This document shows, piece by piece, positions 38,424 to 60,281 of a DNA stretch of 64,000 nucleotides. How positions within the stretch are numbered: the first letter of the stretch is position 1; each line of letters starts with the position of its first letter. The stretch comes from Deferrisoma camini S3R1. Its GTDB lineage: Bacteria > Desulfobacterota > Deferrisomatia > Deferrisomatales > Deferrisomataceae. Below the pieces are notes generated by a model that made no database searches, was not told the origin of the DNA, and was given only the letters and a program-made list of their open reading frames with translations. The position numbers were made by a program, and so were the translations under genes. The stretch covers positions 268,824-332,823 of the forward strand of contig NZ_JAFN01000001.1 of NCBI RefSeq assembly GCF_000526155.1, in the 5' to 3' direction.

Positions 38424-38909
38424 CTACTTTTTCTTGGACGGGGCCTTGGCGAAGGCGCCCTTGTCCACCTTGTCGCCGTGGCAGATGGCGCAGAACTTGC
38501 CCAGCTCGCTGCCCTTGGCCACGGTGCCCCTCAGGTACTTGTAGTTGGGGTTCGAGGGGTGGGGGTTGTGGCAGCTGGTGCACCCCAGGGTGCCGTCCTT
38601 GCGGAGGAGATCGGCCGGCACCTTCACCTTCTTGGGCTTCATGCCCACGGGGTGGGTCTGGGCCAGGTGGATCGGGATGATACCCTCGTCCTCGTTGTGG
38701 CAGCCGAGGCACAGGGCGGCGTCGTCCGCGGCGTTCTTGCCGGTGGCAGGGTTCTTCTCCGCCGTATTGGGGGCCACGGCCAGGATCGCCCGGCCCTTGG
38801 CGTAGTGGATGGAGTGGCACTCCACGCAGTTCGGGTCGTGGGGACCGTAGGCCCAGGCAGCCGGAGCGGCCAGAACCACGGCGACAGCGGCGACGAGCAG
38901 CTTTCTCAT
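38424..38909 (-). CDS. Periplasmic tetraheme cytochrome c (doubled-CXXCH type)
   Basis: A 161-aa protein with a signal peptide (MRKLLVAAVAVVLAAPAAWA) and four CXXCH sites: CVECH, CLGCH, CTSCH and CAICH. Distal His are available in HDPNCVECHSIH, THPVG and HNPHPSNP. It resembles the doubled-CXXCH cytochromes and would carry electrons in the periplasm. GAGGAG precedes the ATG. Monocistronic, with its own terminator. A possible soluble partner of the large cytochrome locus 11 kb away. Confidence 0.92.
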   Translation of the reverse strand: MRKLLVAAVAVVLAAPAAWAYGPHDPNCVECHSIHYAKGRAILAVAPNTAEKNPATGKNAADDAALCLGCHNEDEGIIPIHLAQTHPVGMKPKKVKVPADLLRKDGTLGCTSCHNPHPSNPNYKYLRGTVAKGSELGKFCAICHGDKVDKGAFAKAPSKKK

Positions 38910-39229
38910 GGCTTCTCCTCCTTTTGTGGGGATCGCGGCAGGCCCCATGGAAACGAACCACACGGAACACGCCCCCCAGGGCGGCCGGTACGCTACCCGA
39001 TCGATTCCCGAGGTGTCAAGCGAGAAAAGGCCTCCACCGAGGCGTCCTACGAAAACGCAGGCCCGAGGCTTCGGCCGCCTCGTCCCCAAGCCGCCCGTGC
39101 GATTGCCGACCCGCGTGACCACCCAGGTCCGGCCCCCTCCCGAAATCCGGCCGCCGCCTTTCGAGCAGGTGATGGAGCGGGCCTCTCTGTTTTCCTGTGG
39201 GCTTTCATGGACTTCGACTTGTCCGTCGC
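38910..39229. other. Intergenic region without recognised features
   Basis: Divergent spacer between the tetraheme cytochrome and the 123-aa membrane protein. GC-rich open frames here have no protein-like character. The promoter of the cytochrome should lie in 38925-39050, but I see no clear hexamers. Composition turns A/T-rich after about 39190. Confidence 0.4.
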
Positions 39230-49350: not shown

Positions 49351-50691
49351 ATGAGAACGCTCCTGGCCGTCGTGTGTCTGGCTGTCGCCTGCTGGTCGCC
49401 CGCCCGGGCCGGGCCGGTGTCGTACCGCCTGGTGGAGCCCTCCGATCCGGCCCACGACCTGCTGCCCAAGACCTGCCGGGTGTGCCACAAGGACGAGAAC
49501 TTCCGGTTCTTCGTGGTGGTGTCGCCCGACGACGAGGGGTTGGAGGCGGCGCGCTCCCGGCTGGAGGCCGGCGCCCCCGCCGCCGTGGCCGAGCGGCCCA
49601 AGAACCCCCACACCGGTATCGCCTGCCTGTTCTGCCACCTCCAGGACCCCAACCAAACCCCGCCCGAGGCCATGACCTTCCGCACGCTGGACGGCGGCGC
49701 GGTGGGCCGCGGCGAGGTTGCGTCGGCCTGCGGCCTGTGCCACCCGGAGGCTGCCGTGCGCCACCCCACCGTGCTGGCCGAGGCCGCGGACGCGACGGCG
49801 GACTTCGAATCCGCCGGCCTGCCCTTGGTGGACGGGGAGGCCACCTGCGCCACCTGCCACGACATGCACGAACAGGACGTGGGGCCGGCCGTGGTGCGGA
49901 AGGCCTACCTCGTCTTCGCCGCCAAGAGCCGGGCGAGCTTCGTCCACGGCAACCGGGCCGGCTGCCGGGCCTGCCACCCGGGCGAGCCCGAGCCCGAAAC
50001 GGAGGTGGTGTTCCTGGACCCCGACGCCACGGCCCGGTGCGTGCGGTGCCACACCGGCGGCCACGAGGAGATCCACCCCGTGGGGGTGGCGTCGTCCGAG
50101 CGCACCTTTCCCATGGACTTCCAGGACTTCCCGCTGGACGACAAGGGGCGGCTGACCTGCTCCACGTGCCACGACGAAGTGTGCGGCGGGGACATCGACC
50201 CCAAGAACCCCCGGTTCCTCCGGGGCGGCCCCTACGTGACCCCCACCGACTTCTGCTACCGGTGCCATCCCCGGGCCGGGGAGGGGGCCCTGAACCCCCA
50301 CGACCAGGTCACCGACGACGGCCGGCTGGTGAGCACGAGCTGCGTGTTCTGCCACCGCCGCCGCCCCGGCGAGGAGGGGCCGGGAACCCTCGAGTTCCTG
50401 CACTCGCCGGTGGAGCTGTGCATGGGGTGCCACGACCCCGGCTCCCACCCCACCGTCAACCACCTGGTGGAGATGCCCGAGCCCATGCTCAAGAAGCTGC
50501 GGGCGTACGAGGAGCGTCACCGGGTGCGGCTGCCCCTCCATGAGGACCAGGTGGTGTGCACCACCTGCCACAATCCCCACGAGAAGGGGGCGGTGAAGGG
50601 CGAGGCCGCCCTGGGGGCCGGGGAGGAGAAGGGGTGGCGGGTGCCCAGCTTCGCCGAGCTGTGTACCCCGTGCCACGCACGGTACGACTGA
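49351..50691 (+). CDS. Exported 12-heme cytochrome c
   Basis: A 446-aa protein with a signal peptide (MRTLLAVVCLAVACWSPARA) and 12 CXXCH heme sites (CRVCH, CLFCH, CGLCH, CATCH, CRACH, CVRCH, CSTCH, CYRCH, CVFCH, CMGCH, CTTCH, CTPCH), about one per 37 residues. Several sites have the doubled-CXXCH form CHDMH/CHNPH. No lipobox or membrane anchor, so it is periplasmic or secreted. The ATG at 49351 gives a clean signal peptide. It precedes the TonB/cytochrome run on the same strand. Likely a role in electron transfer to or across the outer membrane. Confidence 0.93.
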   Translation: MRTLLAVVCLAVACWSPARAGPVSYRLVEPSDPAHDLLPKTCRVCHKDENFRFFVVVSPDDEGLEAARSRLEAGAPAAVAERPKNPHTGIACLFCHLQDPNQTPPEAMTFRTLDGGAVGRGEVASACGLCHPEAAVRHPTVLAEAADATADFESAGLPLVDGEATCATCHDMHEQDVGPAVVRKAYLVFAAKSRASFVHGNRAGCRACHPGEPEPETEVVFLDPDATARCVRCHTGGHEEIHPVGVASSERTFPMDFQDFPLDDKGRLTCSTCHDEVCGGDIDPKNPRFLRGGPYVTPTDFCYRCHPRAGEGALNPHDQVTDDGRLVSTSCVFCHRRRPGEEGPGTLEFLHSPVELCMGCHDPGSHPTVNHLVEMPEPMLKKLRAYEERHRVRLPLHEDQVVCTTCHNPHEKGAVKGEAALGAGEEKGWRVPSFAELCTPCHARYD

Positions 50692-50944: not shown

Positions 50945-51607
50945 ATGTGGGAACTGTTCCAAAAAGGCGGACCGACCATGTGGGTGCTCGTCGCCCTGTC
51001 GGTGGCGGGGCTCGCCGTGATCGTGGAGCGGCTGCTCGTGCTGTACCGGGCCCGGACCGACACCGAGGCGTTCACGGCGCGGATCGCGGCGGCGCTGGAG
51101 GCGCAGCGGTACGAGGAGGCCCTCGAGATGGCCCGGCGGGGCACGGGGGCCATGGCCCGGATCCTGGCCGCGGGCCTCGAGCGGATCCGGCGGGGCCGGA
51201 CCGAGGTGGAGAAGGCGATCGAGGCCCGGGGGAACCTGGAGGTGTCCAAGCTGGAGCGGGGGCTGGTGTTCCTTCAGGCCGTGGCCAAGACGGCTCCGCT
51301 GGTGGGGTTCTTCGGAACGGTCTCCGGCATGATCAAGGCGTTCGAGGCCATGGGCCGGGCCGGGCTGGGCAACCCCGCCAACGTGGCCCTGGGCATCTCC
51401 GAGGCCCTGATCACCACGGCCGCCGGCCTGGCGGTGGCGATCCCGGCCTTCTTCTGTCACGCCCTGTTCGTGGGCAAGGTGAACCGGTTCGTGATGGAGC
51501 TGGAGGAAGGGTCGATCCGGTTCCTCGAGGCGCTGGAGGAGGCCGAGGAGCGGCAGGCCAAGAGCCTGGCCCGCTACGAGATCGGAGGGGAGTACCTTGA
51601 GATTTAA
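50945..51607 (+). CDS. exbB: ExbB/TolQ/MotA-family proton channel protein
   Basis: A 220-aa inner-membrane protein with three helices (residues about 12-32, 115-140, 155-180). The signature APLVGFFGTVSGMIKAFEAM (114-133) and the helix VALGISEALITTAAGLAVAIP (conserved Thr/Gly for proton passage) define ExbB/TolQ. With ExbD it converts proton motive force into TonB movement. GGAGAG precedes the ATG. It is first of exbB-exbD-tonB, which runs directly into the cytochrome genes. Confidence 0.93.
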   Translation: MWELFQKGGPTMWVLVALSVAGLAVIVERLLVLYRARTDTEAFTARIAAALEAQRYEEALEMARRGTGAMARILAAGLERIRRGRTEVEKAIEARGNLEVSKLERGLVFLQAVAKTAPLVGFFGTVSGMIKAFEAMGRAGLGNPANVALGISEALITTAAGLAVAIPAFFCHALFVGKVNRFVMELEEGSIRFLEALEEAEERQAKSLARYEIGGEYLEI

Positions 51608-52013
51608 GCGCCGTCTCCCCCCGGACGACGAGGGCGTCCCCATGGCCTCCATGGCCGACATCGCGTTCCTGCTGATCATCTTCTTCATGCTGACCACGGT
51701 GTTCAGCGTGGACCGGGGGCTCCTCATCGAGCTGCCCGAGACCGAGGTGGGGGAGCCGGTGGAGGTGCGGGAGATGGTGATCACGATCCCGGCCGAGGGG
51801 CCGGTGCACCTGGACGGCGAGCCGGTGGAGCTCCAGGACCTGGGGCCGCGGGTCAAGGAGGCCCGCCGCCGGAACCCCCGACGACCCGTGGTGGTCCGGA
51901 GCGACCGGCGGGTACCCTACGGCCGGGTGGCGGACGTGATGGACGAGCTGATCCAGGCCGGCGTCACCGACGTGGCGCTGCCCACGGTGCCCGAGAAGGG
52001 GGACGGTGGGTGA
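51597..52013 (+). CDS. exbD: ExbD/TolR-family protein
   Basis: A 138-aa protein with a TTG start inside the exbB end (11-bp overlap, AGGGGAG upstream). One N-terminal membrane helix holds the essential Asp in PMASMADIAFLLIIFFMLTT; the periplasmic domain (VVVRSDRRVPYGRVADVMDELIQAGV) is typical. It pairs with ExbB. The stop overlaps the tonB start as GTGA. Confidence 0.93.
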   Translation: MRFKRRLPPDDEGVPMASMADIAFLLIIFFMLTTVFSVDRGLLIELPETEVGEPVEVREMVITIPAEGPVHLDGEPVELQDLGPRVKEARRRNPRRPVVVRSDRRVPYGRVADVMDELIQAGVTDVALPTVPEKGDGG

Positions 52014-52924
52014 GGCACGGGTCGGGCGCCGATCCCCGGGACGCCCGGCTGCACCGGTTCGGGATCGCCCTGGGGCTGGTGCTGGCGCTGGGGGTGCACG
52101 CCCTGCTGCTGTGGGGGCCCGATGTGTCGTACCGGCCCGTGCTCGAGAGGGCTCGGATCCGCCGGGTCATGCGGGTCCGGCCCTACGTGCCGCCTCCGCC
52201 CCGGCCCGAGCCCCCGCCCAGGCCGGGCACGGGGGCGGCCAAGCCCGCACCGGCCCCGCGGCCCGCGCCGACGCCGGCGCGGGCCGCCCCGGCGCCCGCG
52301 GCGTCCCTGCCGGCGCCCGCCCCTGGGCCGCCGGCAGGGGTGCAGCCCCGGCCGGGCCTTCCCGAGCCCCAGGTCCGACGGCCCGGGGCTCCGGTGGCCG
52401 AGAGCCGGGCCGAGCCCCGGCCCCCGGCTCCGCCGCGGCCGGCGCAGGTGGCGCCCGAGCCCCAGCCGGACGAGTGGTCCGCCGTGCTGGCCGAGCTGGA
52501 GGCCCGGCGCAGGGCCCTGGGCGCGGACCAGGGGGCGGCATCCGGGGAGCAGGAGGCCGTGGGAGCGGGCCCGGGCGGTGCCGGGGCCGGCCCGGGGGAG
52601 GAGGGATACCTGGATCCCCGCATCCGGGTCACCGTGGTCTCGTATCCGCCCACCTCCATCGAGGAGCTTCACCCCCCCATCTCGTACCCGGACCTGCGGT
52701 TCCACCGCCGGGAGCTGCAGAAGGGGATCTGCCGGGTGTGGTACCGGGTGTGGACCGACCGGACGGGACGGATCGTGAAGACCCAGCTCAAGGCGCCGGC
52801 CAGCCGGGAGGAACAGGAACTCTATGCCCCGTTCGTGGACGCGGTGGTGAAGAGTGTGGAGTCGTGGCCGTTCGAACGCCGTGAGGCGGAGATCCATGTG
52901 GACGTTCTGTTCGAGATCGAGTAG
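52010..52924 (+). CDS. tonB: TonB-family energy transducer
   Basis: A 304-aa protein with one N-terminal membrane helix (IALGLVLALGVHALLLWG), a long Pro/Ala/Arg-rich spacer to span the periplasm (residues about 55-150) and a C-terminal TonB-like domain (YRVWTDRTGRIVKTQLKAPA then VVKSVESWPF). The GTG start is set by the GTGA overlap with exbD. It transmits energy to an outer-membrane receptor, but none is encoded in the window. The next cytochrome gene starts within its last 29 bp, tying the systems together. Confidence 0.9.
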   Translation: MRHGSGADPRDARLHRFGIALGLVLALGVHALLLWGPDVSYRPVLERARIRRVMRVRPYVPPPPRPEPPPRPGTGAAKPAPAPRPAPTPARAAPAPAASLPAPAPGPPAGVQPRPGLPEPQVRRPGAPVAESRAEPRPPAPPRPAQVAPEPQPDEWSAVLAELEARRRALGADQGAASGEQEAVGAGPGGAGAGPGEEGYLDPRIRVTVVSYPPTSIEELHPPISYPDLRFHRRELQKGICRVWYRVWTDRTGRIVKTQLKAPASREEQELYAPFVDAVVKSVESWPFERREAEIHVDVLFEIE

Positions 52925-53642
52925 GGCGTGGCGGCTTGGGGGCCTGGTGGGGATCGCGCTGGCGGCGTGGGCCGTGGCCGCGGTCGCCGCAGGGCCCGAC
53001 CCGTGCCTCGAGTGCCACGGCGTGCCCGGGTTCGGCACGGCCGGCCGGCCCCGGTGGGTCCTTCCCGAGGCCTACCGGGCCGGGGTCCACGGCCGCCTGG
53101 CCTGCGGCGACTGCCACAAGGGGGCCGAGGTGTTCCCCCACCCGGAGCCCAAGGTGCGCTGTGACCTGCCGTGTCACGTGCCCGACGCGAGCCACGCCGA
53201 GCTGGCGGCCTCCGAGGCCTCGGGTGCCCACGCACGGATCGCCGATCCCCCCTGCCTGGCGTGCCACGGCGGGGCGGCCAGGCCCGAGAACCCGGACGAT
53301 CCCTGCCTGGGGTGCCATGCAGAGGTGGAGGCCCCGGTGGTCAGATACCCCGACACGCCGGGCGCCTTCGGCGCCCGGGCCCACCGGGAGGCCGGGTCCC
53401 GGGCGCCGGGGTGCACGGACTGCCACGGGGTGCACGGGGTGGCCGCCGGCGAGGAGGCCCGGGCCGCCTGTGCCGCGGCGGCCTGCCACCCCGGCGCGCC
53501 CCCCGGGTTCTCGGCCCTGTTCGACCACCGCCGCGACCCGGCGGCGCCGGTGTGGGGAGGGGCGCGGCCCGCCCTGGCGTGGGCGGGGCTGGCCGTGGGT
53601 CTGGTGCTCGTCCTGCACGCCCTGGGAGGGAGAAGGCCGTGA
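52896..53642 (+). CDS. Multiheme cytochrome c with atypical heme sites and C-terminal anchor
   Basis: A 248-aa protein with an N-terminal membrane/signal segment (LVGIALAAWAVAAVAAG) and a C-terminal helix (LAWAGLAVGLVLVLHALG). It has five CXXCH sites (CLECH, CGDCH, CLACH, CLGCH, CTDCH) and two extended ones: CDLPCH (CX3CH) and CAAAACH (CX4CH), giving up to seven hemes. The ATG at 52896 lies in tonB with GGAG 6 nt upstream. It overlaps the cytochrome b gene by 4 bp, so it is the likely periplasmic partner that takes electrons from the quinol-oxidising subunit. Confidence 0.85.
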   Translation: MWTFCSRSSRAWRLGGLVGIALAAWAVAAVAAGPDPCLECHGVPGFGTAGRPRWVLPEAYRAGVHGRLACGDCHKGAEVFPHPEPKVRCDLPCHVPDASHAELAASEASGAHARIADPPCLACHGGAARPENPDDPCLGCHAEVEAPVVRYPDTPGAFGARAHREAGSRAPGCTDCHGVHGVAAGEEARAACAAAACHPGAPPGFSALFDHRRDPAAPVWGGARPALAWAGLAVGLVLVLHALGGRRP

Positions 53643-54568
53643 CCCCCCGCCCCCGCACCGTGGAGGTTCTCGACCCGGTGGACCGGTGGCTCCACCTGGG
53701 CGCCATCGCCGGCATGGCCGGGGCGCTGGCCACCGGCCCCGCCCTGGAGACCCCGGCCTTGGCGAAGATGCTCGGGCCCCTGGACCCCAGTTTGGTCCAC
53801 GGCGCCTCGGCCGCGGTGCTGGTGCTCGTGGCCGCCCTCCATGGGGTGCGGGTGTGCCTGGGGTGGCTCGAGGGAAGAAACCCCTGGGGGCTGCTGCCCC
53901 GGCCGGGGGACCTGGCGAGCCTGCTCCGGGCGCTCGCTCCGTTCGGGCCGCCGGAGCGGCGGGGCCGGTACTCCCACCGGGAGCGGTTGGCGTACCTGGG
54001 GTTCGCGGTGGTCGTGCCGGCGTTGCTGGTGACCGGCTGGGCCGAGGCCCACCCGACCTGGGCGGTCCGGTGGCTCGGCCCCGGCGGGCTGGTGGCGGCG
54101 GCGCGGGTCCACTCCGCCCTGGGGCTGGCCGCTCTCATCCCCCTGGGGTGGCACCTGTTCTTCGCGCTGCTGGCCCCGGAGAAGCTCCCCTGGAACCCCG
54201 CGTGGTTGACCGGCCGGGTACCCCTGACGCTTGCCGAACGGGCGTGGCCGGCCTGGGTCGAGGAGGCCGAAGCTCCGGAAGCCGTCGCAGAGGCGGCACC
54301 TCCCTCGGTGGAGGACCTCCTCGAGGCCGGAAACGCCGCGGCCCGGGCCCAGGACTGGGACGCGGCCGTGGCCGCCTACCGGGAGGCCCTGAGCCTGTAC
54401 CCGGGGTACTCCCAGGCCCTGTTCAACCTGGGCCTCGTGTGCTGGAAGGCCGGCCGCAAGGAGGAGTGCCGCGGGGCCCTGGGGCGGTTCCTGGAGCAGG
54501 ACCCGTTCAGCCCGGTGGCGCCGCGGGCCCGGGAGATCCTGGCCCGGCTGGAGGACGACCGTGGCTAG
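53639..54568 (+). CDS. Membrane cytochrome b561-like subunit fused to TPRs
   Basis: A 309-aa protein with four membrane helices in residues about 20-185. His in DRWLHLG, LVHGASAAV..ALHGVRV, YSHRERLAY and RVHSALGLAALIPLGWHLFF could bind two b hemes, as in formate dehydrogenase/hydrogenase cytochrome b subunits. The C-terminal 90 residues are soluble with two TPRs (AAYREALSLYPGYSQALFNLG). The GTG start overlaps the preceding cytochrome gene (GTGA). It is the probable quinone-interacting subunit; the TPR domain would recruit another component. This fusion is unusual. Confidence 0.8.
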   Translation: MTPRPRTVEVLDPVDRWLHLGAIAGMAGALATGPALETPALAKMLGPLDPSLVHGASAAVLVLVAALHGVRVCLGWLEGRNPWGLLPRPGDLASLLRALAPFGPPERRGRYSHRERLAYLGFAVVVPALLVTGWAEAHPTWAVRWLGPGGLVAAARVHSALGLAALIPLGWHLFFALLAPEKLPWNPAWLTGRVPLTLAERAWPAWVEEAEAPEAVAEAAPPSVEDLLEAGNAAARAQDWDAAVAAYREALSLYPGYSQALFNLGLVCWKAGRKEECRGALGRFLEQDPFSPVAPRAREILARLEDDRG

Positions 54569-55106
54569 CGGGTGGGTCCGACGGCTCGGTTCGGTGGTGG
54601 CCGTGGGGCTCCTGGCCGCCGCGGGGTGGGGATACGCGCGGCTTCCCGGGTCGGCCGGGCCGGCGGGGCCGCCTCCGAGGGCCGAGGTGCCGCGGCCCGA
54701 GCCGTTCCACGCGTACGACCGCGGCCGCCTGGCGGAGCCCGGTGGGTACTGCACCTCCTGCCACCCGGCCGCCGCCCATCTGCGGGATCCGGTCCTTCGC
54801 GCGTTCCGGAACCTGCACTGGGTGGGGCTGGACTGCGGGGTCTGCCACCTGGCCGGGCCCCGGCTCACGGTGCGGCGGTTCCCGGACCGGGGAAACCGGC
54901 TGTTTGCCGCACGAAGGACCCCGGAGGGGTGGCAGGCCGTGGACCGGCCGGGCGCGGGCGCCCGGTTCCGAGCCCAGGGGCTCGCCTGCCGGCAGTGCCA
55001 CCGCAGGGGCAGCCCGTGGCTGAACGGGCCCGGGCTGTTCGACGCCTACCGTCGCCGGCTCCTGGAGGACCTCGCGGTGCTGCGGCGGCTGGAGGGGGTG
55101 CGGTGA
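54561..55106 (+). CDS. Triheme cytochrome c, membrane-anchored or exported
   Basis: A 181-aa protein with an N-terminal hydrophobic segment (VVAVGLLAAAGWGYA) and three CXXCH sites: CTSCH, CGVCH and CRQCH. A Pro-rich linker follows the anchor. The GTG start at 54561 overlaps the cytochrome b stop by 8 bp, and its own stop overlaps the beta-propeller gene by 4 bp. Likely a relay between membrane and periplasm. Confidence 0.85.
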   Translation: MASGWVRRLGSVVAVGLLAAAGWGYARLPGSAGPAGPPPRAEVPRPEPFHAYDRGRLAEPGGYCTSCHPAAAHLRDPVLRAFRNLHWVGLDCGVCHLAGPRLTVRRFPDRGNRLFAARRTPEGWQAVDRPGAGARFRAQGLACRQCHRRGSPWLNGPGLFDAYRRRLLEDLAVLRRLEGVR

Positions 55107-55969
55107 GGGGCTCCGGAGGGGTGGGCAACGGTACGGGGGGATGGGGCGGGGCCGCGGTCCTGGTCCTCCTCCTGTGGGCCTGGGGGGCGTGGGCCGGGGG
55201 CCCCCGGCCGTTTCGGGTGCCCCTGCCCGCCATGAACCAGCCCCGGTCGTTCGCGGTGGACCGCGACGGGAGGGTGTGGTGGGTGGAGGACCTGTCGGGC
55301 CGGGTTCTGCGCGGCCGGCCGGGGGGGCGGGCGGCCGAGGTGCCGGGGGTGCCCCGGCCGGCCGCGGTGGCCGCGGCGCCGGAGGGCGCCGTGCTGGTCC
55401 TCCATTCCGGCGCCGGGGGGTTCCGGCTCGCCCTGTGGGCCGGGGGGGAGCGCCGGAGCGTTCCCCTGATCGCGGAGCCGCCCCTCGGCGATCCGGCGGG
55501 CATGGCCGCCCGGGACGGGATCGTCTGGGTGGTGGACCGTCGCCCCAGGCGGGTGGTGCTGTTCGCCTACGACGGCTCGGCCCTGGCGTGGACCGACCTG
55601 TCCGAGCGGGCCCGGGCCCCGTTCTCGGTGGCCCTGGGGCCGGCAGGCGAAGGATACGTGACCGACCCGGCCGGGCCGGCCGTGCTGGCGTTCAACCCGT
55701 CGGGCGCGTATCTGGGCACCCTCGACGTCGGCGGCACGGGCCTGACCCGCCCCACCGGCGTGACGGTGGACGGGAAGGGCCGGGTCTGGGTGTCGGACGG
55801 GGTGACGGGCGTGCTGGTGCTTCTGGACCCGGCGAGGGGCGGCACGACGGTGCGGGCGAACGGACGGGCGATCCGCTTCGCCGATCCGTTGCGCCTGCGG
55901 TGGCGGAAAAGAGTCTGGGTGCTCGACGCAGCACCGGGCCGGATGTGGACCGTGGAGGAACCGCCGTGA
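55103..55969 (+). CDS. Exported beta-propeller (NHL-like) protein
   Basis: A 288-aa protein with a signal peptide or anchor (AAVLVLLLWAWGAWAGG). The mature part has six or so repeats of the form SFAVDRDGRVWWVEDLSGRV, GVTVDGKGRVWVSDG, i.e. NHL/SMP-30-like propeller blades. No catalytic site or heme is seen. NHL proteins often accompany multiheme cytochromes in metal reducers, where they may scaffold the complex. GTGA overlaps at both ends place it in the same transcript. Confidence 0.8.
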   Translation: MRGSGGVGNGTGGWGGAAVLVLLLWAWGAWAGGPRPFRVPLPAMNQPRSFAVDRDGRVWWVEDLSGRVLRGRPGGRAAEVPGVPRPAAVAAAPEGAVLVLHSGAGGFRLALWAGGERRSVPLIAEPPLGDPAGMAARDGIVWVVDRRPRRVVLFAYDGSALAWTDLSERARAPFSVALGPAGEGYVTDPAGPAVLAFNPSGAYLGTLDVGGTGLTRPTGVTVDGKGRVWVSDGVTGVLVLLDPARGGTTVRANGRAIRFADPLRLRWRKRVWVLDAAPGRMWTVEEPP

Positions 55970-56175
55970 GCCGAAAATGGGAGTACGGGCAGATCTTCGT
56001 GCCCAACCCCGAGCCGTTCGGGGGGTTGCCCAAGGAGGCCCTCGACCTGGGTCGGGTCAAGCGGGCCGGGGAGGAGGGGTGGGAGCTGGTGACCACCATC
56101 CCCTACACCACCCCCCAGGGGGAGGTCCGCGGGGCCTTCTTCATCTTCAAGCGGGAGGCCCCGGCCGACGAATGA
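55966..56175 (+). CDS. DUF4177-like small protein
   Basis: A 69-aa soluble protein with KWEYGQIFV at the start and RVKRAGEEGWELVTTIPYTT, the GWELV core of DUF4177, ending FFIFKRE. DUF4177 proteins are small cytoplasmic proteins of unknown role. The GTG start and the TGA stop overlap both neighbours by 4 bp. It is odd to find it between two exported proteins. Confidence 0.75.
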   Translation: MSRKWEYGQIFVPNPEPFGGLPKEALDLGRVKRAGEEGWELVTTIPYTTPQGEVRGAFFIFKREAPADE

Positions 56176-58985
56176 TCTGGCTCGTGCTGCTCGGCCTCCT
56201 CCTGTGGTGCCCGCCGGCGCGGGCCGCGGCCGTGGACGACTGGCCCTGCGTGACCTGCCACCCCTCGCGGGACCGGGCCGCCTTCGACCTGCTGCGGGAG
56301 GACCGCACCGTGATCCTGGGGGACGAGGCGGCCCAGGAGCGGGTGTGCCGGTCCTGCCACAACGGGTCGGTGGTGGACAGCCGGCGCATCCTGGCCCGGG
56401 GCTCCCAGCACCCGTCCGGCGTGGCCGCGGCCCGGCCGCCCCCCGAGCCGTTCGCCCTGTACGGGGGCCGGATCGAGTGCGGCACCTGCCACTCCCCCCA
56501 CGCCGGGGGCGAAGCCGGCCGGCGCTGGCTCCGGGTGCTGCCCCGGGGAAACGAGCCCTGCGCGTCGTGTCACCCGGGCCGAGCCGACCGGCACCTGGGC
56601 ATGGAGTTGAGCCCGGAGGCGCGCGAGAGGATCTCGGCCCTGGGCGGCCGGACCGAGGGGGACACGGTGGTGTGCGCCACCTGCCACCGCCTCCACGGCG
56701 CCTCGGGCCGGGCCTTGCTGGTGGCGCCGTACGGGGACCGGGAGGACGGGCTGTGCCGGGTGTGCCACGCCCGGCTCCCGGCACCGCCCTCCCACCAGAA
56801 GGCGGGGTGCGGGTCGTGCCACCGGCCCCACCGGTCCGAGCCCCTCTTGGCCGAGGGGCGGCCGTGCCTGACGTGCCATCCCGACACCCAGACCCCGAGC
56901 GATCACCCGGCTGCGAGCCCCGTCTGCACCGACTGCCACGCCGTCCACAACCCGGTCCGACCCGAGGGAAGCCCCAAGGGCCTGCTCCGGATGCCCACCG
57001 ACCGGAACCTGCTGTGCGGATCGTGCCACGCGGCCGAAGGAGCCGGGCCCCACGGCCGGGCCGTGCCGGTGGCCGCGGATCCGAAGAGCCTGGCCAGGCG
57101 GGGCATGGGGCTTGATGCGGGGGGCAACCTGGTGTGCACCACGTGTCACCGGGCCCACGGGGCGGCGGTTGCCCCCCTGCTGGTGGGCAGCCCGGGGGTC
57201 CGGTGCCTGTACTGCCATCCCGGCCAGAACCCGTTCGTGCCCGCCAACACTGGGGCCCACCCCGTGGCCGTGCCCCTGCCCGGGGGCCGGGTGCTCGGAT
57301 GCTCCACCTGCCACGCGGCCCATCGGGCGAAGGCCGGTCCTGCGGACTGTCAGGGCTGCCACCCGATGGCCGAGGGGGGCCGCGGCCACGGCGGTCGGCC
57401 CGGGTGCGGCGCCTGCCACGACATCCACGGCACCGGTGCGCCCGCGGCCCGGTGCGCCGGGTGCCACGACGAGGGCCAGGTCCACCTGGGCGTCGCGTCG
57501 GAGGCCCGGCCGGGGCTGCCGGTGTTCGGGGGGACCGGCCGCCCGGCCCCCGAGGGGGAGGTGGGGTGCCCCACCTGCCACGACCCCCACCGGCCGGGGG
57601 CCCCGGTCCGCGGGGGGCAGAGGGCGTGCCTCGGGTGCCATCCGGACAAGCGCGAGGCGACCCGGGCCCCCCACGGGGGGGTATCGGGGTGTTTCTCGTG
57701 CCACCCGGGCCACGGGGACGAGGAGTCCCGGCCGGCAGAGGACCGGTGCCGGGCGTGCCACGGCCCGGACACGGTGAGCCTGGCGGCCCACACCCCGAAG
57801 GGAGCGCCGGCCTGGAAGGGCCTGGGGGAGCGGCTTCCCCTGTTCGACCGGGCCGGCCGGCGCAACCCCTTCGGGTTCATGACCTGCCCCACCTGCCACG
57901 ACGTGCACCGGCCCGACGGGTTCCGGATGGAACCCCGCGATCCCCCCCGGCTGTGTCTGACCTGCCACGGCGACAAGGCGTCGCTGCTGGGTAGCCCACA
58001 CGACCCCCGCTCGGGCGGGGCGGGGGCGGCCTGCGATGTGTGCCATCCCCAGCACTGCCGTGAGGGGGAGCCCCCCCTCTGGAGCCTGCGAGCCGAGGCC
58101 ACCGGCACCTGGAACGACCGGAAGTGCACCGGCTGCCACGGCCCTTCTTCGGGCGGGCCGTGGCCCCACACCGGCCCCCGGTCCCACCCCGTGGACGTGG
58201 TGGTGCCCGAGTCCATGGAGGCCGGCGACCTGCCCCTGTACGACCCCCTCGGCGGGCGGGTGGGGCGCGTGCTGGCCTGCACCACCTGCCACGACCTCCA
58301 CGGCGCGTGGAACCGGGAAGGCGAGCGGATCCCCTGGTTCCTGCGGATGCCGCCGGCCGACGGGGCCCTCTGCCAGCAGTGCCACCCCGCCGAGGCGGCG
58401 GTGCGGGGCACGGCCCACGACGTGCGCACGGACCCGCCCGACCCCCTGGGCCCCTGCGGACCCTGCCACCGCACCCACGGCGCGGTGGACCGGGCCCTGT
58501 GGGCCCTGGAGCCCGCGGCCGGGGACTACGCGCCGAACCGGCTGTGCCGGTCGTGCCACGGGCAGGAGGGGCCCCTGCCCGGGGAGCGGCCCCTCCTGCA
58601 GCACCACATGAAGGACGCCGAGCCCCTCCGGACGCCGCGGGGCACGATCTACCTCCAGCGGCCCATGCTCCTCACCGACACCTGGGCCCTCAAGACCGGG
58701 GAGGAGCCGCTGATTCCCTTGTACGACCGGCAGGGCAACGCCGGGCCCTCGGGGAACCTCCAGTGCGTCAGTTGCCACGACCCCCATCGGTGGAGCCCGT
58801 TCGGCAGCTTCGTGAAGCCGGGGTTCGGGGCCCTGGGGCCCAACGTGGTCACCCGGTTCCTGCGGCTGCGGGACCCCCAGCAGGCGGCTCGCAGCGTGTG
58901 TGCGGTGTGCCACCCAAAGGATGCGCCGGAGCGCTACCTCAAGTACCATCGGGCATGGACCGATGTGGGCGCGGAGTTTCGGTAG
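56172..58985 (+). CDS. Giant exported cytochrome c with 30 CXXCH motifs
   Basis: A 937-aa protein with a signal peptide (MIWLVLLGLLLWCPPARAAA) and 30 CXXCH sites, about one heme per 31 residues. Many are doubled-CXXCH units in which CXXCH is followed by a second His (CHRLH, CHRPH, CHAVH, CHRAH, CHDIH, CHDPH, CHDVH, CHDLH, CHRTH), giving the distal ligand. The motifs are spread over the full length with no other domain, and there is no lipobox or anchor. It overlaps the DUF4177 gene by ATGA. The pattern matches large outer-surface or nanowire-type cytochromes of metal reducers; direct function is inferred. Confidence 0.93.
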   Translation: MIWLVLLGLLLWCPPARAAAVDDWPCVTCHPSRDRAAFDLLREDRTVILGDEAAQERVCRSCHNGSVVDSRRILARGSQHPSGVAAARPPPEPFALYGGRIECGTCHSPHAGGEAGRRWLRVLPRGNEPCASCHPGRADRHLGMELSPEARERISALGGRTEGDTVVCATCHRLHGASGRALLVAPYGDREDGLCRVCHARLPAPPSHQKAGCGSCHRPHRSEPLLAEGRPCLTCHPDTQTPSDHPAASPVCTDCHAVHNPVRPEGSPKGLLRMPTDRNLLCGSCHAAEGAGPHGRAVPVAADPKSLARRGMGLDAGGNLVCTTCHRAHGAAVAPLLVGSPGVRCLYCHPGQNPFVPANTGAHPVAVPLPGGRVLGCSTCHAAHRAKAGPADCQGCHPMAEGGRGHGGRPGCGACHDIHGTGAPAARCAGCHDEGQVHLGVASEARPGLPVFGGTGRPAPEGEVGCPTCHDPHRPGAPVRGGQRACLGCHPDKREATRAPHGGVSGCFSCHPGHGDEESRPAEDRCRACHGPDTVSLAAHTPKGAPAWKGLGERLPLFDRAGRRNPFGFMTCPTCHDVHRPDGFRMEPRDPPRLCLTCHGDKASLLGSPHDPRSGGAGAACDVCHPQHCREGEPPLWSLRAEATGTWNDRKCTGCHGPSSGGPWPHTGPRSHPVDVVVPESMEAGDLPLYDPLGGRVGRVLACTTCHDLHGAWNREGERIPWFLRMPPADGALCQQCHPAEAAVRGTAHDVRTDPPDPLGPCGPCHRTHGAVDRALWALEPAAGDYAPNRLCRSCHGQEGPLPGERPLLQHHMKDAEPLRTPRGTIYLQRPMLLTDTWALKTGEEPLIPLYDRQGNAGPSGNLQCVSCHDPHRWSPFGSFVKPGFGALGPNVVTRFLRLRDPQQAARSVCAVCHPKDAPERYLKYHRAWTDVGAEFR

Positions 58986-58997
58986 GAAAGGATCGGG

Positions 58998-60281
58998 ATG
59001 GGCTGGATCGGATGGATCGTGTGGGTGGTGCTCGCGGCCACGGCCGCGGGGGCCGGGGACCTGGCCTCCCTCAAGGCCGACCTCACCGGGCCGGACGGAA
59101 ACGCCCGCCGGAAGGCGGCGGAGGCCCTGGGCGAGATGGGGGGGGCGGAGGCGGTGGACCTGCTGGCCGCCGCCTACCGGGCGGAGGCCGAGGACGCCTT
59201 CGGGGTCAAGGCGGCCTGCGCTGTGGCCCTGGGCCGCACGGGCCGGCCCGAGGCCGCCGGGCCCCTGGCCGAGATGCTCGGGGACCGGGACTACTGGGTG
59301 CGCCGCAAGGCGGTCGAGGCCCTGGAATCGATCCCCGGCCCGGAGGCGGAACGCGCCTTGGCCCGGGCCGTGGGCGACGACGACCCCCGGGTGCGGGCCG
59401 CGGCGCTGGAGGCGCTGGGCCGCCGGGGCGGAGCGACCGACCTCCTGCGCGCGGGGTTGGACGACGACGACCCCCGGGTGCGGGCCGCGGCGCTCTCGGC
59501 CCTGGTGCAGGCCGGGGTGCCCGACTCGGACCGGCTGCTGGCCGAGGCGCTGGGGGAGGAGTCGTGGAGGGTTCGGCTGCGGGCCGCCGCGCTGCTCGCG
59601 GCCCGGGGCGACGCCCGGGGCCGCGAGGTGTTGGCCGGGGCGGTGCGCCAGGGGCGCCACGCCGGCACCGCGGTGCGCGAGTGGAGCTGCCTGGGCGCCG
59701 AGGCGGTGCCCGACCTGGCCGCCCTGTGGGCCGACCCCGAGGTGGCCCCACCCGAGAAGGGCCGGATCCTGGAGGTGCTGGAGCGCCTCGACTGCCGCGC
59801 CTCGACCCGCTTCTTCCTGTCGTTGGCCACCGACCCGGGGGCAGCGGCCGGGGACCGGGTCCGGGCCGTGATGGTGCTGTTCGACCGCAGGGGCCGGCTG
59901 GGGGCTGGGGACGTCCGGGCCGTGGCGGGGCTCCTGGACGAACCCGACCCGAACCTCAAGGCCGTGGCGCTACAGATCCTGCTGGACCGGGGGGGGCCGG
60001 AGTTCCTGGCCCAGATCGCCCCCCTGGCCGAGCACCCCAACCCGGTGGTGCGCCACTTCGCCCTGCAGAACCTGGCGGCCCACGGCGGCCCCGAGCACGA
60101 GGCGGTGTTCGTGCGGGCCCTGCAGGACCCCAAGGCCACCAACGTGCGCCTGGCCATGGAGACGCTGGGCCGCATCGGATCCCCGGCCGCCATCCGCGCG
60201 CTGGAGCCGTTCCTCGGTCAGCGCAAGTACCGCCGCTACGCCCAGGCCGCCATCGACGCGATTCGGGAGCGGTCCCCATAG
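58998..60281 (+). CDS. Exported HEAT-repeat protein
   Basis: A 427-aa protein with a signal peptide (WIGWIVWVVLAATAAGAG) and about ten HEAT repeats, e.g. DPRVRAAALEALGRRGG and DDDDPRVRAAALSALVQAG. GGAT spacing of 12 bp after the 30-heme gene and an AAAGGA site place it in the same operon. HEAT repeats of this kind bind other proteins; it may scaffold or assemble the cytochromes in the periplasm. No catalytic residues are seen. Confidence 0.82.
   Translation: MGWIGWIVWVVLAATAAGAGDLASLKADLTGPDGNARRKAAEALGEMGGAEAVDLLAAAYRAEAEDAFGVKAACAVALGRTGRPEAAGPLAEMLGDRDYWVRRKAVEALESIPGPEAERALARAVGDDDPRVRAAALEALGRRGGATDLLRAGLDDDDPRVRAAALSALVQAGVPDSDRLLAEALGEESWRVRLRAAALLAARGDARGREVLAGAVRQGRHAGTAVREWSCLGAEAVPDLAALWADPEVAPPEKGRILEVLERLDCRASTRFFLSLATDPGAAAGDRVRAVMVLFDRRGRLGAGDVRAVAGLLDEPDPNLKAVALQILLDRGGPEFLAQIAPLAEHPNPVVRHFALQNLAAHGGPEHEAVFVRALQDPKATNVRLAMETLGRIGSPAAIRALEPFLGQRKYRRYAQAAIDAIRERSP

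Follow-up and report, generated by a model that had tools for sequence, protein, structure and literature searches.

Known Multiheme Cytochromes

Geobacter carries a 27-heme cytochrome, GSU2210, which, together with the 12-heme GSU1996, belongs to the periplasmic "nanowires of hemes" of this genus and has been proposed to act as a wire or capacitor (PMC10138318). GSU1996 consists of triheme c7 domains with one His–Met heme each. The filament-forming cytochromes OmcS and OmcE feature six and four hemes per subunit, respectively, and an interfacial heme is ligated by a His residue of the neighboring subunit (PMC12954529). The helical rise of OmcS, OmcE, and OmcZ amounts to 47, 34, and 58 Å per subunit of six, four, and eight hemes, respectively (PMC12954529, PMC10138318). 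The OetABI and OmcKL conduits of syntrophic sulfate reducers involve large multiheme cytochromes of Desulfobacterota encoded in electron-transfer gene clusters; the OetABI conduit comprises a porin of the outer membrane together with an extracellular cytochrome that is a lipoprotein (PMC10553843). Further relevant systems are the MtrA/DmsE decahemes and HmcA, a large soluble periplasmic protein with 16 hemes. A protein with 113 hemes was reported for Methanoperedenaceae, and as many as 50 multiheme cytochromes in a single genome for Deferrisomataceae—spelt "Defferisomataceae" there (PMC7327174).

The c30 Locus

The window is the whole stretch of DNA analyzed here, 64,000 nucleotides from Deferrisoma camini S3R1 (NZ_JAFN01000001.1, positions 268,824 to 332,823). 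It carries the gene of a 30-CXXCH cytochrome, here termed c30, within the following set of genes:

49351..50691, forward strand: c12, exported 12-heme cytochrome (12 CXXCH motifs in 11 of the 11 loci with the gene present)
50945..51607, forward strand: ExbB/TolQ-type proton-channel protein (PF01618, 9.5e-32)
51597..52013, forward strand: ExbD/TolR-type protein (PF02472, 1.4e-28)
52010..52924, forward strand: TonB-like protein, assigned solely from its position and layout (a single N-terminal TM segment, a Pro/Gly-rich linker, and a conserved C-terminal domain of ~100 aa)
52896..53642, forward strand: c5, membrane cytochrome (five CXXCH and two CX3-4CH motifs, hydrophobic segments at both ends; putative start, placed from the sequence)
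53639..54568, forward strand: cytochrome b561-type membrane domain fused to TPR repeats (PF01292, 5.5e-8)
54561..55106, forward strand: small membrane-anchored cytochrome (three CXXCH motifs here, two to three in relatives)
55103..55969, forward strand: exported NHL-repeat propeller protein (PF01436, 8.2e-10; putative start codon)
55966..56175, forward strand: DUF4177-like protein of 69 aa without signal peptide, its stop codon overlapping the c30 start (ATGA)
56172..58985, forward strand: c30, exported 30-CXXCH cytochrome of 937 aa (odd-numbered hemes 3–29 CXXCHxxH; 28 further His residues conserved in the order)
58998..60281, forward strand: exported HEAT-repeat protein (PF13646), which adjoins c30 in only part of the order and hence is not a core gene

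The ten genes from c12 to c30 form a conserved set in the succession listed, with c30 as the last core gene. The same gene order is found throughout the taxonomic order, to the extent covered by the contigs, and also in the distant family f30 (f4, f25, and f30 being the family labels used in the genome search). No operon that lies complete on its contig lacks the ExbB/ExbD/TonB-like trio, and the motif pattern of c5 is constant wherever c5 is complete. In lineage f25, c30 and the DUF4177 gene stand together, and the other operon genes are not nearby. The C-terminal domain of the TonB-like protein gives no significant match in Pfam and, as a 10-sequence profile, none in the PDB; the layout of this protein and its ExbB/ExbD neighbors fit a TonB energy transducer. 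The operon contains neither an outer-membrane barrel gene nor a dedicated secretion gene, and at E ≤ 0.001 the window's genome gives no match to MtrB/PioB (PF11854), with one weak match among the 13 genomes searched. A search of the open-access literature returned no description of this operon. A separate exported cytochrome with four CXXCH motifs lies approximately 10 kb upstream on the opposite strand (38424–39122).

The DUF4177 gene lies directly upstream of c30 in the loci examined. Of the 395 genomes sampled in the phylum, 15 encode relatives of its product at E ≤ 1e-12, and these are exactly the 15 genomes that encode the 30-heme protein. They fall into three lineages, and the co-occurrence therefore represents far fewer than 15 independent events; it has no exception in this sample. 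The DUF4177 protein is better conserved than c30, with an identity of 57–99%. In the open-access literature, no paper was found that joins DUF4177 with multiheme cytochromes.

Sequence Features and Export of c30

The open reading frame of c30 starts with an ATG at 56172 and ends with its stop codon at 58985. A direct recount bore out the coordinates given in the initial annotation of this DNA as well as its count: CXXCH occurs exactly 30 times without overlap. In 1000 composition shuffles, such motifs number 0.265 on average and three at most, which rules out a chance origin. Of 62 Cys residues, 60 are located inside the motifs; the remaining two are C13 in the signal peptide and C629. The spacing between motifs varies from 16 to 73 residues, so that the near-constant heme density described initially is only roughly right. 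Pfam assigns cytochrome families alone to c30, in line with the claim that no other domain is present; the doubled-CXXCH family PF09699 scores 150.8 bits against a cut-off of 20.6 and covers eight stretches. Judged by this profile, c30 belongs to the multiheme c-type cytochromes of the doubled-CXXCH type.

The N-terminus features a Sec-type signal peptide with a predicted cleavage near ARA/AAVDD, as read by eye. Inspection of the sequence found neither a lipobox nor a C-terminal anchor, as had been noted before. C13 is preceded by LLW, and LLWC is not a lipobox; moreover, this position is a Ser in an ortholog of 94% identity, which rules out a lipoprotein. A decaying gene is ruled out as well, with a dN/dS of about 0.17 between the window and the nearest ortholog, and with intact orthologs. 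BLAST self-comparison detects no significant internal repeat, whether the motifs are masked or unmasked. AlphaFold2 models were unusable both for mature c30 submitted together with three further sequences (mean pLDDT 29) and for a six-heme segment of c30 aligned with other repeat segments (pLDDT 43).

Heme Motifs and Putative His Ligands

The motifs of c30 alternate along the chain. From heme 3 to heme 29, every odd-numbered heme—14 in total—carries a CXXCHxxH motif, and no even-numbered heme does; the latter have CXXCH with a remote His. This alternation is exact in 15 of 17 orthologs, with small departures in the other two. Hemes 2–5 and 7–30 are followed by a further His before the next motif in the 17 orthologs, with one exception in one sequence. 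The pattern fits bis-His hemes arranged in a two-heme repeat and is unlike the triheme c7 repeat of GSU1996.

Within the order, 28 non-motif His residues are conserved for the 30 hemes—27 in 11 of 11 sequences and the remaining one in 10 of 11. Among the members of the order, no conserved His follows heme 1 or heme 6, and at least two hemes may therefore not be bis-His. In 15 of 17 orthologs, heme 1 has no following His; for heme 6, such a residue is present in the distant lineages as well as in the genus to which the window belongs.

Orthologs and Conservation of the Heme Sites

A first search of 59 relatives of the window's genome found full-length c30 orthologs in all eight members of the order outside the family. 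Within the family, the only further genus has an ortholog, as does one of the two congeners; the genome of the second congener is 81% complete. The identities of these orthologs are 40–94%. When the search was widened to 395 genomes of the phylum, c30 was additionally found in two distant families, to which two more members were later added. The initial annotation had proposed a search for orthologs of the same heme count. In an alignment of 17 orthologs from three lineages of one phylum (28–94% identity), all 30 motifs occupy the same columns. Of the 30 sites, 28 are retained in all 17 orthologs. Each of the remaining two is missing from a single sequence: heme 14 from one ortholog (Cys lost, CLDGH) and heme 30 from another. 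Apparent 29-heme orthologs are accounted for by these two losses and by four sequences that use CX4CH at heme 24.

The distant orthologs are only 28–31% identical to the window's protein. In six of them, 539 of 540 C, C, and H residues of the motifs match the window, compared with 16.9% of the other residues. The heme sites are thus maintained under selection while the rest of the protein diverged. As far as sequence can answer, this result also speaks to the objection, raised at the outset, that many of the sites might not be hemylated.

The overall length of c30 is not fixed, since one ortholog from the order carries a four-heme insertion and long insertions without hemes are present in two of the distant orthologs. 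The former (L006, genome G007) has gained a four-heme module after heme 4, resulting in 34 hemes, and is the sole heme gain seen in the family. Relatives outside the ortholog group share N- and C-terminal modules with c30 and feature between 15 and 49 hemes; hence, a fixed heme number is not a rule in the wider family. No relative of c30 was found in viral contigs.

Two further observations concern individual orthologs. In all five f4 orthologs (L007–L011), a shared ATC codon, preceded by a purine-rich GGGAG-like stretch, marks the start of the signal peptide. L007 has no ATG, GTG, or TTG between the upstream stop codon and the first heme, and the sole such positions in L010 and L011 are inside the signal peptide. 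This suggests a conserved AUC start codon in the f4 orthologs. The f25 ortholog at L092:3053–6760 contains one in-frame TAA, yet the sequences before and after it together contain all 30 sites; the codon may represent a sequencing error, readthrough, or a broken gene.

The window's genome, one contig of 4.24 Mb, encodes three further CXXCH-rich frames with 35, 24, and 24 motifs. These frames and the published 113-heme protein (PMC7327174) show that the initial statement that cytochromes with more than 20 hemes are very rare was overstated. The 35-motif frame (L066:3170–6253, genome C1, about 3354169–3357252) encodes 1027 aa with near-regular doubled motifs. Two frames of genome G245 are related to c30: one of 2093 aa with 49 motifs (L088:4656–10937) and one of at least 1799 aa with 41 motifs (L089:1–5399). 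By the alignments above, c30 constitutes a new family of giant multiheme cytochromes with a fixed heme number, of a kind that is itself already known, and its conservation deserves more attention than its size. The two most informative facts about it, neither of which the initial annotation mentions, are the heme number and register, fixed even in distant orthologs, and the conserved ten-gene operon.

Comparison With Known Systems

The profile of c30 finds its best match in the PDB in MtrA of entry 6r2q (4e-14), in three stretches. The 16-heme HMW cytochrome 2e84 (6e-9), OmcE of entry 7tfs (3.7e-6), and, weakly, OmcS (0.014) are matched as well, and the C-terminal module is matched by 9yuq, a cytochrome entry of 16 chains. 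The closest of these structures by profile, namely MtrA, the 16-heme cytochrome, and OmcE, are all heme-wire or heme-relay proteins that each match only part of c30. The best view of c30 is therefore that of a long heme relay within a single chain.

MtrA and DmsE share with c30 the alternation of CXXCHxxH and CXXCH along the match. However, c30 has three times the hemes of these decahemes, and its genome yields no MtrB/PioB; the MtrA/DmsE family TIGR03508 scores 99.1 bits on c30, below its cut-off of 192.2. HmcA resembles c30 as a large soluble periplasmic multiheme protein with a partial profile match, but differs in heme number and operon, and its NCBIfam model scores 19.8 on c30 against 400. 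GSU2210 and GSU1996 are, like c30, exported single-chain proteins with very many hemes and no anchor. According to their published descriptions, they are nevertheless set apart from c30: GSU1996 by its c7 domains with a His–Met heme each, in contrast to the strict two-heme repeat and the 28 conserved non-motif His residues of c30. OetABI and OmcKL are similar in being large Desulfobacterota cytochromes in electron-transfer gene clusters; compared by published description, the c30 operon lacks both the porin and the extracellular lipoprotein cytochrome of OetABI. In OmcE and OmcS filaments, few hemes per subunit are combined with intersubunit His ligation, whereas c30 holds 30 hemes in one chain.

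Proposed Function of c30

We consider c30 to be a single-chain, quinol-fed multiheme electron wire or reservoir of the cell envelope, the location being predicted from the signal sequence, and assign this reading a probability of about one half. c30 would be exported by the Sec pathway and matured with presumably all 30 c-type hemes, which would form an unbroken and probably linear chain of heme pairs. Electrons would originate from a putative quinol-oxidizing inner-membrane module of the same operon. They would pass, in a tentative order, from the b561/TPR protein and the 5+2-heme and 2–3-heme membrane cytochromes to the 12-heme cytochrome and on to c30. The latter, if periplasmic as predicted, would pass them across the periplasm to outer-membrane or extracellular acceptors or store them. 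The sequence data establish the presence of the 30 sites, the selection on them and their common register, as well as the export signal and the conserved operon. In favor of the reading are also the alternating motifs with their further His residues, the constant heme content of the membrane cytochromes in the operon, the profile matches to heme-wire proteins, and the lack of an anchor. As nothing encoded nearby shows where the electrons go—the operon has no barrel gene, and the genome yielded no MtrB/PioB—an envelope wire or store is the best explanation. The unusable structural models, hemes 1 and 6, the variable overall length, and f25 with its absence of nearby operon partners count against it.

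Alternatively, c30 could belong to a conduit as its outer-membrane or surface component, possibly energized or positioned by the ExbB/ExbD/TonB-like system; the barrel of this conduit would be unrecognizable or encoded elsewhere. MtrA as the best profile match and the presence of the trio in every contig-complete operon are consistent with such a conduit, as are six plug-domain receptors encoded elsewhere in the genome and NHL proteins that also adjoin related large cytochromes. It is rather unlikely, however, given that MtrB/PioB was not found in the genome, that the window's operon has no barrel gene, and that the DmsE/MtrA score remains under the family cut-off.

The initial annotation read c30 as a very large electron-transfer cytochrome without anchor, which stands, and as secreted past the outer membrane, which is not supported: a Sec signal without lipobox only places c30 outside the inner membrane, and neither an operon barrel nor MtrB/PioB was found. 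Its suggestion of a polymeric nanowire is possible but not favored. An exported c30 that polymerizes into an extracellular cytochrome filament or decorates one would agree with a soluble, anchor-free protein, the partial profile matches to OmcE and OmcS, and the match of the 16-chain entry 9yuq to the C-terminal module. On the other hand, MtrA is closer by profile, and the operon has no dedicated secretion or barrel gene. In addition, the conserved non-motif His residues are fewer than the hemes, so that c30 has no extra conserved His with which to ligate a heme of its neighbor as in OmcS and OmcE, making polymerization less likely. Taken together, we regard a c30 filament as quite improbable.

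A terminal reductase with heme 1 or 6 as an open catalytic heme for a soluble or mineral substrate, fed by the other hemes, would suit the 28 conserved His residues for 30 hemes in the order and the missing His after heme 1 in 15 of 17 orthologs, but is very improbable, as heme 6 has its His in the distant lineages and the window's genus, Met, another residue, or a partner could ligate heme 1, and c30 bears no recognized catalytic signature.

Returning to the envelope wire or store, 30 hemes at the rise of OmcS, OmcE, or OmcZ would span about 22–26 nm, if straight. Usual periplasm widths are close to this range. In a more far-reaching form, to which we give little credence, the constant count of 30 would itself serve the function: the stacked hemes would make c30 a heme-counted wire that bridges both membranes alone, with the ExbB/ExbD/TonB-like motor positioning or gating it. 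If this were true, the proton-motive force would control electron transfer across the envelope.

Large multiheme cytochromes usually vary in heme number among relatives, whereas c30 keeps its 30 hemes in register. Such constancy calls for a physical cause, for example a defined length of the molecule, closure of the chain, or a constant capacity for electrons, and makes this cause testable. The ExbB/ExbD/TonB-like motor and the small DUF4177 protein are new handles on the making and control of such cytochromes.
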